In this document: positions 6,551-64,000 of the stretch, piece by piece
Numbering within the stretch: the first letter of the stretch is position 1
Layout: each line of letters starts with the position of its first letter
Program-made: the position numbers and the translations under genes
Source: Methanomicrobiales archaeon
GTDB lineage: Archaea; Halobacteriota; Methanomicrobia; Methanomicrobiales; JACTUA01
Direction: 5' to 3'
Assembly (NCBI GenBank): GCA_030019205.1
Contig: JASEFH010000009.1
Span: 1-64,000, forward strand
Length of the DNA stretch: 64,000 nucleotides
Notes under the pieces: model-generated
The model's input: the letters and a program-made list of their open reading frames with translations, nothing else
What the model was told of the DNA's origin: nothing
The model's database searches: none

Positions 6551-8943
6551 CGTAGCCTTCTCCTGGTGAATGGATGGGGAACGAAAGTGCCATGCCGGCG
6601 AATCGCATGCCAGCTCAGCACCAGCCCACCTGTCAATACACGTCGGTCGTATGAGAGCATAAACCGTTGTATCGGAACGAAGAACCGTCAAACACGCGTG
6701 CCCTCTCCGAAGGCGGTTTGAGGCCGATACAGCTCCGGTGCCCCTCGGGTTCCGCCCCACCGGATACGGGCAGGGAACACGTGGAGGGCAGGGGCTGCCA
6801 TATCGTCAGGCGCCGTGAGACCGGAAGGGATGCTGCCTCCGAAAAATAACACGGATATGCTGACCCGGTCTTGACGGGGGATATGGGCGAGGCAACTCGC
6901 GGTGCCCCGGTGATCTCCCCTCCGATGCGGCGCATCGCTGGTGCATTCCCCCATGCTGAAGATGGGCGCAGATCTGGTTTGAGAGCTACCGCCCGCTCGA
7001 TGGCCGAAGGCATCCCGATCTTCTGCCTGCGTCGGGCAGCCGAGTCTGGCCACCTCGGGCCTACCGGCCGGAACGGAGGGGAGTGGGTGCACGGAGTCCG
7101 GGCGACCACCTGCCGGGGCAGACCCGCAATCAGGGTCCCGATCCCTGCATCCCGGATCCCTCCATGAATCCGTCCCCGACCGCCACGGGCAGACTCCAAC
7201 CAATTTCCCGGGCGGCATCCGATTTCAGGTTGCCATCGATCGATTAGCATTTGAAGCCGCACGTCCTTCGAGGGCACCCCATGAAGGAGCTCGAGGGCTC
7301 GATCGAGATTGATGCGCAACCCGATACGGTCTGTCACTTTATGGCCGATTCCGATAAGATCAGGGCGAGATCCGGCGAGACCCGGGAGTTTCCGTAAGCG
7401 GGTCCGCAGATAGGGAGTCCGAACCCTCTTTTCGATCCGGGAGAGACGGGAAGACGGATATACACCCTGCACTCATCGCCACGAGTGGCTCGGGCCCGTA
7501 TATGTGTGTTCCGCAGAGTCTCCGGGGACTTCTTCGAGGCCTGCGAGGTGCGATGGCTCATCGAACCGAATCTCTCCACGGCACCCGGTTCTGACTCCGG
7601 GCAGGATCGAGCTCCAGGGCGGGCTGATCGGATGACTGCTGGAAATTGGTGAATAGCCGCGATCCCTGGAAAACACTCGCGAGATGCTGTGCAGTTTCCA
7701 AAAACAGGGGGAGAGCAGCACACCCGGAGCTCGGATCCCCGTCCCGCGTGACGGTCCAGGCGATCCGGCAATCGATCGGACTTCACGCCCCCCCAATCGC
7801 AGAGAGGGGCTTGTGGGTGCTTGCGCGGGATCGATCCGAATGGTTCAATGCCGCACCATCCATCCCAGTCGTGGCAGCCCGAGCCGGTTTTACCGGAGAC
7901 GTCCCGGGAGATTGGGCTGCCGGTGCAGCCCTTCTGGCCAAACCATACACATGTACCGAAAGGTGCGGCGATCTGTCGTGGCCGGCATGTGGTCGCATGA
8001 GAGGAATTCGGCTGACCGGGATCGGACACCACCGGCGCGGACGAGACCGCGACACATCTCTCTTGAGGTCTCTTACCGGGCTGACCGCCAGGCCATCGTG
8101 TTGCATTTACTCGATCCGAGCGGGGGCAGGAGAAACCTCCTTCTTCCGGATAGGGAATGAACCGCCACAGTTCGAACCGGATTCCTGGAAGGCGGCAGGG
8201 GCAGGACGATGCTTTCCCCGGTGCGTGGGAGAGCCCGTGCTGGGTGAGTGGAGACCCCCCGCCCGGTGCAGGGGGCTGAAAGGAAGAGAATGGCGGGATG
8301 ACCGTTAACCTGGATCTTCCGGGCGAATATGTCAGGAGAGGTAGGCGCGGAAGGGCGGTCGCTGGATGCCTTCTGCCGCATCCAGAAGCGGATCCGTGGA
8401 TCGGTGAAGAGGTGTGGAGAGGGGCGCAGCCGTTGATGGGGAAAGCTCCAGCGCGGGTCGATCAGAGCGGGATGCCGTGCGTGGGGCGGTGCGGATCTCT
8501 TCACGGAGGCGGCGGACGCACCCCGTCCAGACTCCGACTCCCCGGCATACTGGGCGGGGCGAACGGGGAGGGGAGTGCATCCCCCTCCAACTCCCCCGTT
8601 AAGAGCGACAGGATGAGGGTCGGAGAGGGTGAAATCGGTTGCGTTCCGGGAGAACACTGAATCGCACCTCCCCCTTTGCTTCTTCTTACACTGCAGAGGC
8701 TCGGTTCGACAAGTGGCGGGAGGGGTTATCCCAACTCCCGAGGTATCCCTGCCGCAGCAGAGCGGTCGAACCAGAATTCGGCGGTTTCTCACGAGGCGGA
8801 TTTGCCGTCCCCGTCGGACGCTGCTTTGGGAGTCAGCGGCATCTGGCACCGTTCCACTGCGTCGCTCCGAACCGGAAGCGAGGACTATGGCGACAGCCTG
8901 TCCCCCGAACTCTGACGCAGGGACGGGTAATGGTATCGCGATC
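6551..8943. other. 2.4-kb stretch with no supported gene
   Basis: Several long frames exist on both strands, but they are arginine-, proline- and serine-rich, lack ribosome binding sites and match no family I know. They are the by-product of high GC. A degenerate copy of the dispersed GC palindrome is present at about 8546-8612 (GGGGAGGGGAGTGCATCC core). The rest is probably decayed sequence. I see no tRNA or other structured RNA. Confidence 0.6.
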
Positions 8944-19647: not shown

Positions 19648-19772
19648 GGCTCCGTCGAAATCCCCCCGAGGTTGACGGCTCTCCGGTCTTCTCAGGGAAG
19701 GGGTCGCACTCCTCTCCCACGTCGGGCGATAGAGAGGTTTCTCCTCGGTATTCACCCTCCAGGCCTATCGAA
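19648..19772 (-). repeat. Tail of dispersed repeat (copy 2, reverse)
   Basis: Read on the reverse strand it begins TTCGATAGGCCTGGAGGG, contains CTCTCTATCGCCCGACG and ends GGATTTCGACGGAGCC. It matches the copies at 14757-14893 and 63548-63689. It is directly joined to the GC palindrome at 19766-19855, showing that palindrome and tail belong to one element. Confidence 0.6.
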
Positions 19773-19855
19773 CCAGTCCCCTCCCCTCGGAGAGGGGGGG
19801 CCGTTCCGGGCCGCGGGGAGGGGAGAGTTGGGTTCGACCCTCTCCCCCTGCGATA
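19766..19855 (-). repeat. GC-rich palindromic element, 90 bp
   Basis: Bounded by TATCGAA on the left and TGCGATA on the right, with long runs GTCCCCTCCCCTCGGAGAGG and GCGGGGAGGGGAGAG in between that can pair into hairpins. Same family as the copies at 57181-57266, 43404-43472 and in the 27.0-27.9 kb array. Confidence 0.6.
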
Positions 19856-26183: not shown

Positions 26184-26935
26184 CGGGCAGAGTCTACCTG
26201 GTCGGAGCCGGCCCGGGGGTGCCGGGGCTCCTCACCCTCCGCGCCCGGCAGGTGATCGATGCGGCGGACGTGATCCTCTACGACCAGCTGGCCGGAGAGA
26301 TCCTCCGCACGCTCCCCGAGCATGCGGAGCGGATCGACTGCGGGAAGTACGGGGGGCGGCACACCCTGGAGCAGGATGAGATCGAGGCGATCCTGGTGGA
26401 CCGGGCGCGCGCGGGGCGGACCGTCGTGCGGTTGAAGGGCGGGGACCCTTTCCTCTTCGGGCGGGGTGGCGAGGAGCTGGAGGTGCTCCGGGCTCACGGG
26501 ATACCGGTGGAGGTCGTTCCCGGCGTGACGAGCGCGATCGCGGTGCCCGGCTGCGTCGGGATCCCGGTCACCCACCGCAGGTGCGCCTCCACCGTCATCT
26601 TCGTGACGGGACACGAGGATCCAACAAAGGCGGAGTCCGGGATCGACTGGGCGGCGCTCGCGAAGACGCGGGGGACGATTGTGATCCTGATGGGCGTGAA
26701 GAACCTGGAGGGCATCGCGAAGACTCTGCAGGGTCACGGCATGGATCGGGAGACGCCGGTCGCGATCGTCGAGCGCGGGCTCTCGGAGGGGCAGCGGGTG
26801 ACTGTGGGTGTCCTCGGGGACATCGCCGTGCGGGCACGGACCGCAGGAGTCCGACCGCCGGCCATCATCGTGATCGGGGATGTGGTGCAGCTCTACCGGG
26901 GCGAGAACCTCTATAGCGAAGAGCTCCAGGATTGA
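26180..26935 (+). CDS. cobA: Uroporphyrinogen-III C-methyltransferase (SUMT)
   Basis: A 251-residue SAM-dependent enzyme methylating uroporphyrinogen III at C2 and C7 to give precorrin-2. The tetrapyrrole methylase signatures are complete: VYLVGAGPGVPGLLTLRA, VVRLKGGDPFLFGRGGEE and EVVPGVTSAIAVPGCVGIPV with THR. It overlaps the hemC stop as ATGA. It is the last gene before the repeat array; its product feeds SirC at the head of the operon and CbiL at the next one. Confidence 0.95.
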   Translation: MTGRVYLVGAGPGVPGLLTLRARQVIDAADVILYDQLAGEILRTLPEHAERIDCGKYGGRHTLEQDEIEAILVDRARAGRTVVRLKGGDPFLFGRGGEELEVLRAHGIPVEVVPGVTSAIAVPGCVGIPVTHRRCASTVIFVTGHEDPTKAESGIDWAALAKTRGTIVILMGVKNLEGIAKTLQGHGMDRETPVAIVERGLSEGQRVTVGVLGDIAVRARTAGVRPPAIIVIGDVVQLYRGENLYSEELQD

Positions 26936-28037
26936 AGGATCCGGGGCATCCCCTTCTCTATCCTTTGAAAGACATTGCACAGCGGCGGGAGGGCTTGGTG
27001 GTGTATCTCTTGCAATCCTGCCGCCCCGAGCTCCGATCAGAATCATGTATACGGATTCTCCTGGGGTATCATACCGGCGGGGGAATAGGGGGAGGGGGTG
27101 CGCCCCCCCCCGGTGCGATAGGGTCTGTAGGAGAGAGTGCGGCGGAGACCCTTGTTCGAATCCGACATTGATGTTCGGGGGTATTTGAGGCGACACCGAG
27201 CACCCCCTGCCAGGATTATCGCACCGAAAGGAGAGAGGGAGAAGAAGCCCAGCTCTCATCCCTACCTGGGTTGTCGAGGCATTCTCGAATCTCGGGGATG
27301 CAGAAGGGAATTGGGTATACGGATTTCCACCCGGCCATCGTACTGGCAGAGGTGGGGGCACTTGGGGGAGGGGGCACCGCCCCCTCCACCCTTATTGCGA
27401 TAGGCCTGGATGGAGCAGAAGATCGGTTGGGCATCTAGTGTCTGAATTCTGCTATGCTGGGATTGGCGGAGGCATCCTGGAGCACCCGCACCAATGTTAT
27501 CGCACTGCAAGCACGGCTTGGGTGCGAAATCACGCACTGTCTATTCTGCCTAACCGATCGAGCACCCGGAAGAGCCGGCTTCCGGTATACGGATTATCCA
27601 GGATCTCGCTATGCAGGGAGGATGGGAGCACGGGGGAGGTGATGTCATCCTCTCCCCCCGCTAATGCGATAGGGCCTGAGTGAACAGAAAGATCGGATGG
27701 CTATCTCGCGCGGCCGACCAGAATCGTGGCCATACCGCCACCGTAAAAATCGGTATCCCCTTTTCCGAGGTGCGATGGGGCTGGTGCGCGGACCTGGGGA
27801 TCGGACCGACGTTCTGCGCAGTTGTGGCTATTACAGGGATACTTCTCCATTCAGGACAGGTCAGGCATCCCGGAGCAGGCTTCTATCGTGCTGCAGGGGA
27901 TGGGGACTGGGGAGGAGATGCGCCTCCTCCAAGCAGCGATAGGGCGTAACCCGGAGAGCGAGGAATTCGAAGATAAGAATAATACGACGATCAACCCAGG
28001 TTATTATTAACACAACCAAATTTTCGTAAGGTGTGAT
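26936..28037. repeat. Array of GC-rich palindromic repeats between cobA and cbiT
   Basis: No gene is supported. Four related units with a spacing of about 250-275 bases are visible. Each has an upstream GTATACGGATT-type string (27049, 27315, 27588; degenerate in the last), a G-run/C-run palindrome, and TGCGATAGG at its right edge (27114, 27396, 27665, about 27935). Units two and three continue into a shared segment containing CAGAA and GATCGG. Extra TATCGCA strings lie near 27218 and 27497. The last unit contains a near-perfect hairpin, GGAGGAGATGCGCCTCCTCC. Palindrome cores: 27067-27120, 27336-27402, 27603-27671, 27884-27941. The promoter of cbiT lies within the last 60 bases. Confidence 0.7.
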
Positions 28038-28568
28038 ATGGGTCTTCCAGGCGGACCGACACAGGATGAGATCATGGCGGTCGCCCTCCAGAAACTGGGA
28101 CTCCGACCGACCGATCGGGTGGCTGACATCGGCTGCGGGACCGGAAAGGTCTCCATGGCGATTGCGCGGCAGGCAGAGCGGGTATACGCGATCGACCGCC
28201 GGGAGGAGGCGATCGCCGAAGCGCGGGGGGCGGCAGCGGGTGCGGGCGTCTCGAATATCGACTTCCTGCCGGGCGAAGCCCGGCAGATCCTCGGCGGACT
28301 GGGGGAGCTCGATGCCGCCTTCGTGGGCGGGTCCCGGGACCTTCCCGAAGTGCTCGGCATCCTCGCACGGCAGGTGAAGGGCACGATCGTGGTGAACGCG
28401 GTCCTCGTGAACACGCTTGCGACGGCGATCTCGACCATGCGGGCGCTCGGCATCTTCCGCGAGGCGGTTCTGGTGCAGGTGGCGCGCTCCCGAGAGGTCG
28501 GCGGCGAGATCATGTTCCGCCCCATCGACCCCGTTTACATCGTCGTGGGGGGTGCGGCATGCTCGTAG
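28038..28568 (+). CDS. cbiT: Cobalt-precorrin-6B C15-methyltransferase (decarboxylating) CbiT
   Basis: A 176-residue Rossmann-fold SAM methyltransferase that methylates C15 and removes the C12 acetate carboxyl in the anaerobic cobalamin route. Motif I is VADIGCGTGKVSMAIA, then VYAIDRREEAI; the AFVGGSRDLPEVL loop is typical of CbiT. It is unfused from CbiE, which lies at the far end of the operon. AAGGTG precedes the ATG by a few bases. First gene of the cbi operon; a TATA-like ATTATTAAC lies about 28-36 bases upstream. Confidence 0.92.
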   Translation: MGLPGGPTQDEIMAVALQKLGLRPTDRVADIGCGTGKVSMAIARQAERVYAIDRREEAIAEARGAAAGAGVSNIDFLPGEARQILGGLGELDAAFVGGSRDLPEVLGILARQVKGTIVVNAVLVNTLATAISTMRALGIFREAVLVQVARSREVGGEIMFRPIDPVYIVVGGAACS

Positions 28569-43005: not shown

Positions 43006-43954
43006 CCCCTATTAACGGGTCTGCGGCGCCGCCAGGTGTCCTGGTCCCCCGTGAGTTTGATCGAGGGGCAATCTGCTGATGTATTAATCGGCCCGAATAT
43101 TTCCCCCCGTCTTTCAATCGGTAGTGAGGAACGGGCATACCGGTATGGGTTTCATTCCCCCACACCGATGCCTGCCGACTATATTCCTTTTCCTGTTCGG
43201 CCGGATTCCCATGCGGCGGCATTCTCTTGACGCAGTCGTGATTTGAGTCCCCCCTGCAGAAAGGGCTCCCTCCGATGTACTCTCGTTCCGCTGTGAAAGA
43301 GATCCTCTGTAAAGATACAGAATCTCTGCGTACTCGCGAGAATATATTCGATACTGACCAGAACCGGATGCGCTTCCCGGGTTTCTCTACCTGTGCCCAT
43401 TCCTATCGCTATTATGTGGGCTCTGTTGCGGGCGAGGAGCGCACCCCTCCCTCCTTCCCCGCCAGTACGATATCCTGCGGAAAGGAAGTATGGATGGCCC
43501 ATATTCGACATCTTCAGCATCCTCCTGCCCCAGGATAGATTTATCCCCCAGAGGCCAGTGCGGACTGAGCCGGTTAAGCCCCCCAGATAGGCTAGCGGTA
43601 CATACGGAGTGCATATCGATGGTCTCTCCGGGTATCCTGCTCCGCCAATCCAGGCTTTTCTACAGTCAGGACGGCGGCGATTCCACCCGCACCTTGCTCC
43701 GAATCTCCGACAGGATGGAGAGAAAGCCTCCCCCTGACCTGATCCTCCCCTCGGTCAATAGGCCACAGAATAGATGACAGAGTACCGAAAAACCGGGGAT
43801 AGTCGCCGAGAGGAGCCCGACCCGTTGTTGCCCAAGCATGAAATGCAGCGCGCATCGCCGCCGGGCATACCGTCTGGTCGTACGCAGGCGCCGAACCGAG
43901 CGCATCGGTGCACTACCGTTAAGAACTCGAGACCACCATGTACTATGGTAATTC
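43006..43954. other. Gene-free stretch upstream of carA
   Basis: About 950 bases with no supported gene. It contains one palindromic element at 43404-43472. The promoter of carA is not obvious; a weak GTACTATGGTAA lies just before the start. Confidence 0.5.
43404..43472 (+). repeat. GC-rich palindromic element, 69 bp
   Basis: Bounded by TATCGCT and TACGATA; the core GCGAGGAGCGCACCCCTCC and the right arm TTCCCCGCCAG closely match the copies at 57181-57266 and 62800-62914. Confidence 0.6.
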
Positions 43955-51055: not shown

Positions 51056-52008
51056 AATGGGATGAATCATCCCCGGCTTTTTCCAGCTTCTTACCAAGGG
51101 CTGCATGGGTTTCAGGATCAGCCGTTCGATTCCGCCTTTCCTCCATCGACCGCATCCTGGCGGTGCCGGTTCGGGCGGAGGAACGCGGCCGCCGATAAAT
51201 TCGGCGGTATCAACCGAGCCCGCCCCCGATGGAGCAGAGGCTCGCACGTATGCGCCGGTAAAGGCTGACCAGCGCCCTCCCGGTCCCCGGGGAAGATGAA
51301 CAGGTTCTAGGTCTGCCGGTGGCCCAGCACGGATACTCGGGGCATCGGATCAATCCCGCAGGATACGCTCGAGATATTGTTCCCGCATCAGAAATAACGG
51401 CTCCGTGCAAACGGCAAACGGAGACGAGGATACGGAACAGTCCACATACGGACTCTCCATTCGAGGATATCGAACTAGAGGACATAGGGCTCACGAACAG
51501 TATTGCCCTCGATCCTCCCCCCGGGTTATCGTGCTGGCGGGATGGGGCATTGGTCCGCTGGTTCCCGCTTCGACGCCATCGCAGGGACGGGCGAGGAGCC
51601 CTCACCAGTGCGATATACCTGAATCGGGCAACCGTGGCGCGAATCGACGCTCTATGCACATCAGCCCGGCTTGAACTTCTCCTTCTCAGGGTGTTGCAGG
51701 AGGGGGATTCATCCTTTTCGGTGCGACATGGCTTGTAGGAGGCAGAATCGGGGGATTTCTGAAGGAGAGCGGGCAGACGTAGGCGCAACCCAGCGGAAGA
51801 ATGCACGAGTATTCAAAACCGGGAGGCAGTCGCGAGAGCGATGGGCGGTCTCGCCTCCGATGGTATTCGCCAGGCTGCAGGGGCTTCTGCAGCCCGGAAA
51901 CCGCTCGGTCCCTTTCTAATCCCGGGAGCCGGGAGAATCCGCCCTCCCCTGCCGCGGGAGTGCCGCCGTCCCGAAGAAGATGGCGGTGTTCCGCTCTCTA
52001 CGCGGAGT
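51056..52008. other. Gene-free stretch downstream of argG
   Basis: About 950 bases with only GC-driven frames. A CCCCCCGGGTTATCGTGCTGG string near 51518 resembles part of the palindromic repeat family but is too degenerate to delimit. Confidence 0.45.
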
Positions 52009-56586: not shown

Positions 56587-57790
56587 GGAACTGGATCACC
56601 GCACCCCTTACATGTTCGTTTTCGGACTGGAGTCGATATGTCAGGGCCGCTCTGGCGTCTGATCGCGGGTGCGATCCGCTCTGTTCCATCGCCGGATTGG
56701 TGAGGCAGCCTGCGGCAGCACATATACAGAGTGTTTGCTATGAGGAGAGTAAAAAGTTCTTCGATTGAGGAATGCATGGGCGCCAGCGCCCGCAGATGCC
56801 AGGATGGACTGCATGACGGCGCCCCGTCTCCCCGGTGCGCCCCTCGCGGGATCGGTGCAGTGTCCGCGCATACCCCGATGCGGGCGGCGCAGAATCCGGT
56901 GGACGCAATCGCGGCGGAGATGGAGGGCGCACCACCCAATCTTAGCGGCAGCCACATGGGACGATCCGTCTCGGCACGATACTGCTTGCGTCCTCCCATG
57001 GGAGGCCTGTGATGGATCAGAACGGTCTGAAATCCCCGAATAGCCCTGCCGCACCCTCTGGAGGAGGGATCTCTTTCCTGATTGTCTTCCGCTCCTGCAT
57101 GCGATGCCCATGCGGGGATGCTGGAAACGGACCCCCGGTCCACGTACAACAATTCCCCCCACCTCCCTCCAACCCAGGCTTATCGCAACGACTGGGGGCA
57201 GGGGTTATGGCGGGGAGAGGGGGAGGACGCACCCCCTCTTGACCCACTCCCCCTGCCGGTGCGATAGTCCCCGAACGACCAGAACGATCAGCCAGAACCG
57301 TTTCTGAACTGACAGCATCTCGGACGGCACGGTGTTGGGCCGCAGAGGATGAGCAGGGGTGGGGCTTCGCTTCCCGATGCGAGCTCGTTCACCCGGGAAC
57401 GTTCGGGATCCACAGGACTGACAGGAGAATCCGGTCCGAGTACCCAGGCCTCTCCCATTCTCGGCCCGGTGCTGATGGAGGCCTCCCGCGCATCCTCCCA
57501 TGATGAGTGCGGCAACTCCTCCCGTGCACGCAGGAGACGGATCGCAGGATCCGCCATGACGCAGGATCGGGATGTGTCCGCAATGAGGAAGGAGTTCCTC
57601 TTCCCTACCCCCGCGTCACGCTGTCCAGCGCTATCCCGGGAAGCCCATCCGAAGCCAGATCCTCGCCGTGCTCTGCCCCCTCCCAGCATTTCGATGCCGC
57701 GGGAGCGAGCAAACCACGCCCGTGCTCCGCGTCGGATGCGCATCCGAACTCATGGCTACTCGTGCGGGCTCCATCCTGCCGTCCGGATCG
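56587..57790. other. Gene-free stretch between purD and pyrE
   Basis: About 1.2 kb with no supported gene on either strand. It holds the best-defined copy of the palindromic repeat at 57181-57266. The remainder is high-GC sequence without recognisable motifs. Confidence 0.5.
57181..57266 (+). repeat. GC-rich palindromic element, 86 bp (best copy)
   Basis: Perfect 7-base terminal inverted repeats TATCGCA and TGCGATA. Just inside lie GGGGGCAGGGG and its partner CCCCCTGCC, and the centre has GGGGGAGGACGCACCCCCTC. The whole element can fold into one long imperfect hairpin. Confidence 0.7.
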
Positions 57791-62735: not shown

Positions 62736-63010
62736 GAAGGGTGGATCCGGGTTCTAGTCAACATTCCGCATCGCTATTCCTGCCGCGGAATGCATGGGTT
62801 CTGCGTCCCCTGCGGGATGGCGGAACGGGCGGCAGAATCGGTTTTCCCGTAGCGGGGGAGCGGGGGGAGCGCACCCCTCCAATCCTCCTGACCTCCTACC
62901 CCGCCGGTGCGGTAGGATGCGGATAATTGAGGAGAGGGCAGGCACTGCCGTGAGACAATTTCCGTAGGCCATCGTGCCGATCTGGCCACCAACCTTCATC
63001 TCCGGCAACT
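62736..63010. other. Gene-free stretch with a palindromic repeat copy
   Basis: No gene; contains the repeat listed at 62800-62914 and a short spacer. Confidence 0.4.
62800..62914 (+). repeat. GC-rich palindromic element copy
   Basis: GCGGGGGAGCGGGGGGAGCG, then CACCCCTCC and CTACCCCGCCGGTGCGGTA at the right edge, matching the copies at 43404-43472 and 57181-57266. The left border is not sharp. Confidence 0.55.
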
Positions 63011-63310: not shown

Positions 63311-63547
63311 GACTCCTCAAATCCATGCGAGTGCCATCAGTACCCTTTTGCATTCTGCCCGGTTCTACCGGAGATTCTCTGACCGCTCTTTTCGATGAGA
63401 AACCCGGTGATTATGTCTTTCCACTGCTCTCTCGGCAGGTAAAGAGGCAATTTGTGGGCTCTGGAGAAACGCTCCCCGGCGTATTTTCCACCTGTCCCGC
63501 GGGTGGACCCATCGATGATCCGCGTTCACCCCTCCCCCCGGGGAAGG

Positions 63548-63689
63548 GAATCGTGCGACAGGCCTATATCGGACCGGGAATGCCGGGCAGGATGCTCTCT
63601 GTCGCACGAAGGGGTTGAGGAGAGATGCCCTTCCCCGGAGAACACCCGAGAGCCGTACACAGACTCCTGATGAGGATTTCGACAGAGCC
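63548..63689 (+). repeat. Tail of dispersed repeat (copy 3)
   Basis: GAATCGTGCGACAGGCCT at the left, CTCTGTCGCACGAAGGGG inside and GAGGATTTCGACAGAGCC at the right, matching 14757-14893 and 19648-19772. It is preceded by CCCCTCCCCCCGGGG, a shortened palindrome. Confidence 0.6.
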
Positions 63690-64000
63690 ACTTTGTGAGG
63701 TCTGAATTCGTACCGGCATCGGGCGCATCTACGTTTCCCATCAGCCGGTCTGCACAACCTCTCGCAGTGGCACCCGGGCATTCGTGCCATTCTCCCCACG
63801 CAGGATTTCAAGGTGGTGGCTGAAATGGAACGATATGCCTATTGCACGGTCGATAATCGGAAGCCTCATCAGGATCGGTGATGAACAGGCAGATCGCTGG
63901 AGTTGAACCGCCATCGTCGAAGAGAAAAAGACGAAATGGAGGCAGCACCGTGCGTTTCTGGACCGGGCAGACGAGCATGAGCTGCAGGCGTATCTGCTGG
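63690..64000. other. Right edge, possible relic of a protein gene
   Basis: From about 63838 the forward strand reads PIARSIIGSLIRIGDEQADR, then a stop, then in the same frame AIVEEKKTKWRQHRAFLDRA and DEHELQAYLL to the edge. This looks like protein rather than a shadow and may be a broken gene or the start of one continuing beyond the window. No family recognised. Confidence 0.35.

Follow-up and report, generated by a model that had tools for sequence, protein, structure and literature searches.

What kind of element is the palindrome with TATCGCA/TGCGATA ends at 57181-57266, and how did it come to have relatives elsewhere in the same DNA? A sequence-only reading of the 64,000-nucleotide stretch analyzed here (the window) had listed several intergenic places with related ends and a G/C-rich palindromic core and had proposed a MITE or a REP-like family. 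To examine this, we used 23 copies of the family, which we designate F1, to build a covariance model, R1. The related ends and the palindromic G/C core are present at every listed place, and R1 recovered eight of the places, two of them weak, as F1 copies (Table 1).

The 7-base ends read at 57181-57266 are real, but they extend by one base on each side, to TTATCGCA (57180-57187) and TGCGATAG (57260-57267), and thus span 57180-57267. Oriented by its conserved outer arm, this copy reads on the minus strand. The element itself is larger than had been proposed: iterated nhmmer profiles give a repeated F1 unit of ~265 bp, in which a second, weaker hairpin (unit B) lies downstream in the same orientation. 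A profile started from L116 covers window positions 57275-57019 (E 1.5e-38), and the unit B region has a blastn match to L067 (213 bp, 71%).

Table 1. Positions of F1 and F2 features in the window.
Feature	Position	Strand	Score
F1 hairpin unit A (copy first noted)	57158-57289	-	R1 68.8 bits, E 2e-15
Same ~265-bp F1 repeat, downstream spacer and weaker hairpin unit B (CATCCCCGCATGGGCATCGCATGCAGG...)	57019-57180	-	
F1 unit, first in array	27044-27143	+	R1 59.5 bits
F1 unit of array	27313-27425	+	R1 72.5 bits
F1 unit of array	27581-27694	+	R1 32.6 bits
F1 unit of array	27861-27964	+	R1 39.6 bits
F1 unit	43381-43495	-	R1 47.8 bits
F1 unit absent from the sequence-only list	51504-51638	+	R1 31.4 bits
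Degenerate F1 unit	62822-62937	-	R1 23.6 bits, weak
Very degenerate F1 unit, approximately the central hairpin alone	8525-8639	+ (model match 8560-8597 on -)	R1 18.8-20 bits
F2 copy, both ends present (GGCTCTGTCGAAATCC / GGCTCTGGAGAAACGC)	63457-63689	-	E 8.6e-27
Left target-site duplication of this F2 copy (AATTTGTG)	63449-63456	+	
Right target-site duplication of this F2 copy (ACTTTGTG, 7/8 identical)	63690-63697	+	
F2 copy, right end lost, followed by F1-like end (CTCTCCCCCTGCGATAG, to 19856)	19648-19826	+	E 4.9e-40 to F2 consensus

The approximate consensus of the family is CTATCGTACCAGCGGGGGTGGGGGCACGGGGGGAGGGGGTGCGCCCCCTCCCCCTTCAAATCCCCCTCCCCCnnGGTGCGATAG, outside which the arms extend as ...AGGC and GCCTGGATTGGGGGAGC. 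From the outside inward, the inverted arms comprise an outer AGGC/GCCTGGATTGG, the word CTATCGYAC/GTGCGATAG, and G-runs/C-runs, and they enclose a G/C hairpin. The boundary words are near invariant in the alignment, with outer arms beside them, and are candidate ends; repeat similarity continues past the hairpin over ~265 bp. Even very diverged copies retain the words and the central hairpin well, which could reflect constraint. When folded as single strands, the best-kept copies form a single long hairpin, imperfectly paired, whose inner stem is G/C. Their z-scores against dinucleotide shuffles range from -0.9 to -2.3, so folding energy by itself is unremarkable for such G/C-rich DNA. A canonical G-quadruplex (G4) motif occurs in 33 of 88 F1 places, compared with 1.9 in shuffles and 29 of 2,205 random windows (1.3%) from the same loci; this enrichment is a property of the sequence and no evidence of function. 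An RNA reading drawn from strand-specific G-U wobble in the words was rejected as confounded by the model's orienting of the copies, and a MAFFT alignment of the raw right flanks was uninformative.

Four of the copies in the window form an array at 27.0-28.0 kb, all in one orientation. TRF detected no array over 26900-28100, the divergence between units being too great. Unusually long stretches lacking called genes include 26936-28037, 56587-57790, 6761-8943, and others, with a median of ~0.9 kb around F1 copies; the gene caller was crude and missed some genes, calling 63% of the window coding.

We searched the whole of the source genome (G000; 2.73 Mb in 73 contigs). The pattern CCTCN{0,30}TGCGATAG gave 66 forward and 23 reverse matches, several of them overlapping at one site, versus 5 and 6 for a reversed control. 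R1 gave 135 matches at ~80 or more distinct places (best E 1e-21). Because R1 scored 150 of 1,852 first-look candidates, ~80 is a lower bound, and copy number rests on search matches; closer search of 60 loci brought the count to 88 places. The family is therefore present genome-wide in excess of chance. The placement of the copies between genes in the sequence-only reading also holds: with a home-made gene caller, 67 of the 68 F1 places that have a called gene on both sides are intergenic. Of these, 25 lie between convergent, 33 between tandem, and 9 between divergent genes, and the median distance to the nearest genes is 300 to 380 bp. The two arms of a copy fit each other no better than they fit the arms of other copies (outer z -0.9, inner z -2.2). 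Since the arms decay independently, we read F1 as an old MITE-like palindrome family that is inactive here.

We next consider how F1 might have moved. No target-site duplication stood above permuted controls across 74 copies (offsets of 0 to 50 bp, lengths of 2 to 12), and F1 is for this reason not filed as a MITE. No precise empty site was found; at the L175 locus, some species lack the entire intergenic stretch. Nor did arm pairs of the F1 type enclose a transposase where examined, in two Methanoculleus genomes and at one locus of G000. One inverted F1 arm pair in G000 (contig C23) holds two main open reading frames without a Pfam family match. In G033, two arms separated by 4.5 kb, considered as a transposon, enclose a RecQ helicase and represent two ordinary elements. 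Because none of target-site duplication, precise empty site, and autonomous element was found for F1 in these searches, its past transposition is something we infer.

The MITE proposed for the listed hairpins does exist in this genome, as a second family, F2; for F1, neither a target-site duplication nor, at the loci examined, a partner element was found. F2 elements are 230 to 285 bp long, have IS5-like ends GGCTCTGTCGAAATCC and (inverted) GGCTCTGGAGAAAAGC, and occupy ~35 places in G000; the left end has 84 near matches versus 9 in a control. They are flanked by 8-bp direct repeats whose identity is 0.62 observed versus 0.26 expected, with a peak at 8 bp and little excess at other lengths, and the repeats are perfect at L057, L144, L151, and L161. 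An insertion sequence of ~762 bp on contig C49 (L210, 2335-3096) encodes a DDE_Tnp_1 transposase and has ends GGCTCTGTAGAGATCC/GGCCCTGTAGAAACCC that are similar, not identical, to those of F2; related copies occur on C52 and C53. Elements of this type are the likely mobilizers of F2. The combination of an 8-bp duplication and a DDE_Tnp_1 transposase presumably fits the ISH1-like branch of IS5. Together, these features identify F2 as a genuine IS5-type MITE.

F2 is a relative of F1. The interior of F2 contains two hairpins ending in GTGCGATAG, one of which continues with GGCCTGTATGG as in F1; F1-type hairpins have thus traveled within a MITE. The place at 19766-19855, which had been counted with the hairpin at 57181, falls in an F2 copy with the end GGCTCCGTCGAAATCC, and its right end is indeed F1-like.

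We looked for relatives of F1 outside G000. An exact F1 pattern scan of 84,980 GTDB species genomes, a set that may leave out records of G000 or of very near genomes, gave 4 matches, approximately the chance expectation; F1 with exactly these arms therefore appears confined to this lineage. By contrast, 43 of the 150 genomes examined from the order have R1 matches, with E-values that rest on a short calibration; these are strongest outside G000 in f4 g9 (g9 being Methanoculleus) and f5 g10. The number of matches per Methanoculleus genome ranges from 0 to 15, indicating that base composition alone does not account for them. The Methanoculleus elements share the order of parts seen in F1: an outer arm, either P (ACACGGATTTCCA..GGATATCGCC) or Q (CAGTGGACCGTGGGGATATCGCC), is followed by G-runs, the G/C hairpin, then C-runs and GGCGATA. 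The TATCGC/G-run/G/C-hairpin/C-run/GCGATA architecture is thus present in genera other than that of G000. Allowing up to 3 mismatches, arm P has 30 copies in G038 and 36 in G033, versus 0 and 0 control matches. Judged by the same architecture and R1 scores of 30 to 48 bits, the Methanoculleus elements are likely homologs of F1 by common descent. At a contig end in another genome (L239; G156 C38), a run of dozens of G starts within the hairpin core and resembles an assembly artifact.

Orthologous loci in Methanoculleus reveal how these palindromes change. At all three loci compared, species differ in the orientation of the core that lies between TATCGC and GCGATA, while arms P and Q stay fixed: locus A (G033 versus G111), locus C (G038 versus G115), and L175 (G038, G131, and G033 versus G058). 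In the G038/G115 pair, the better-kept flank is ~95 to 98% identical at the compared sites. Among 26 elements, the core adjoins P in 16 (P-X) and Q in 8 (Q-X), and in 2 it is flanked by P at either side (P-P). The far half is usually longer as well in inverted copies, which therefore differ by more than the inversion. In G000, the same flip of the core relative to the outer arm is not clear. In addition, hairpins of ~45 bp lie within an element in one species and not in the other (G075 versus G033 and G111 versus G033), and such nested hairpins are common in G038. They constitute a further family (TCGCACCTTCGGTGCTCGAACTCCGCTCCTGCGGAGCGTCGC; L340, L341, L342, and L343 in G038, and L286 and L288 in G075 and G111) and sit in the G/C core or beside the arms. 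Core inversion and nested hairpin insertion are the unusual part of this system, and core inversion in Methanoculleus is its novel and testable part.

Taken together, F1 is probably an old, MITE-like family of noncoding, palindromic intergenic repeats that was once moved in trans by a transposase and is now decaying by mutation. Under this reading, a trans-acting transposase that is no longer recognizable would have spread F1 in the past; part of the spread of F1-type hairpins has come from hitchhiking within F2. The copies sit in long gene-poor stretches, as arrays and as singles, and would now be decaying. In Methanoculleus, the outer arms keep their place at a locus, and it is the core that flips or acquires nested ~45-bp hairpins; the flip presumably arises when the palindrome recombines or when replication switches templates across it. 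We infer that F1 has no present function.

Could the hairpins instead be selected DNA or RNA structures or G-quadruplex sites, such as terminators, mRNA 3' ends, or nucleoid or replication sites? We consider this unlikely, if the most credible of the alternatives. The share of convergent gene pairs (25 of 67, versus 3 of 22 long gaps counted in the window alone), the canonical G4 motifs, and the words kept across genera are in its favor, as are central stems whose two sides match in length: they are equal in 35 of 40 Methanoculleus copies (permutation P 0.0006) and, weakly, in 8 of 12 G000 copies (P 0.05). The matched lengths argue that selection, conversion, or correction of the palindrome maintains the innermost hairpin to some extent. 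However, the typical distance to the nearest genes is far for a terminator, presence is patchy within one genus, and Rfam has no match at the gathering score in the window, the loci giving just subthreshold animal microRNA models. Per-copy compensation between the arms is also absent, as expected for unselected relics. The REP-like family proposed for these hairpins, in which REP/REPIN-type elements moved by a Y1 (HUH) RAYT transposase leave no target-site duplication and form arrays, would account for extragenic hairpin arrays and for the absence of duplications in F1. It nevertheless seems the most remote of the readings weighed here, since neither G000 nor the hairpin-rich Methanoculleus genomes that were tested have a match to PF01797 (Y1 transposase), while three Methanoculleus genomes that do bear Y1 genes (G013, G018, and G099) are poor in or lack F1-type hairpins. 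Moreover, F1 units measure ~90 to 265 bp rather than 20 to 40 bp, and their ends, CTATCGYAC/GTGCGATAG, carry neither GTAG nor CGTC, the two tags described for REP (PMC3733652).

The inverted cores raise a different alternative, that of invertible DNA in which a putative site-specific recombinase flips the hairpin core between TATCGC and GCGATA. The inversions within fixed outer arms, including the one between the closely similar G038 and G115 flanks, and the occurrence of both core orientations among paralogs are consistent with such a system. The inverted repeats are just ~10 bp long, however, the inverted copies bear further changes, no flip is evident in G000, and the same outcome would follow from conversion among the dispersed copies or from template switching at a palindrome during replication; we regard this alternative as very doubtful. 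Its broadest form, an order-wide Methanomicrobiales palindrome whose core is actively inverted by a dedicated putative recombinase and into which small nested hairpins insert, strikes us as improbable to a nearly equal degree, if marginally less so.

With F1 and its likely relatives, an order for which we found no described palindromic repeat gains a repeat family that extends over several genera. The sequence-only reading had known of no named repeat of this form in this group, and we likewise found no description in the open-access literature, where absence is weak evidence. At orthologous Methanoculleus sites, core inversion and nested insertion can be traced directly, so that the way in which palindromes evolve becomes open to test.

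Among known systems, invertons are invertible intergenic segments between inverted repeats. The Methanoculleus cores are likewise short intergenic segments between inverted repeats and present in both orientations; they differ in that the flip is seen just between species and in that the repeats are very short. F1 resembles REP, REPIN, and BIME elements with their RAYT transposases (PMC3733652, PMC3116915) in its extragenic hairpins, many copies, arrays, and lack of target-site duplications, but it resides in a genome without a Y1 transposase, carries no GTAG/CGTC tag, and has a longer unit with multipart arms. The IS5-family-derived MITEs of archaea include those tied to ISMma12, ISMac15, and ISMba19 (PMC3852290). 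F1 differs from these in having no target-site duplication and no partner element found, whereas F2 is like them in its short, noncoding sequence, its target-site duplications, its tens of copies, and terminal inverted repeats common to a DDE transposase element, and is set apart from them by 8-bp duplications and by the two F1-type hairpins that it carries inside.
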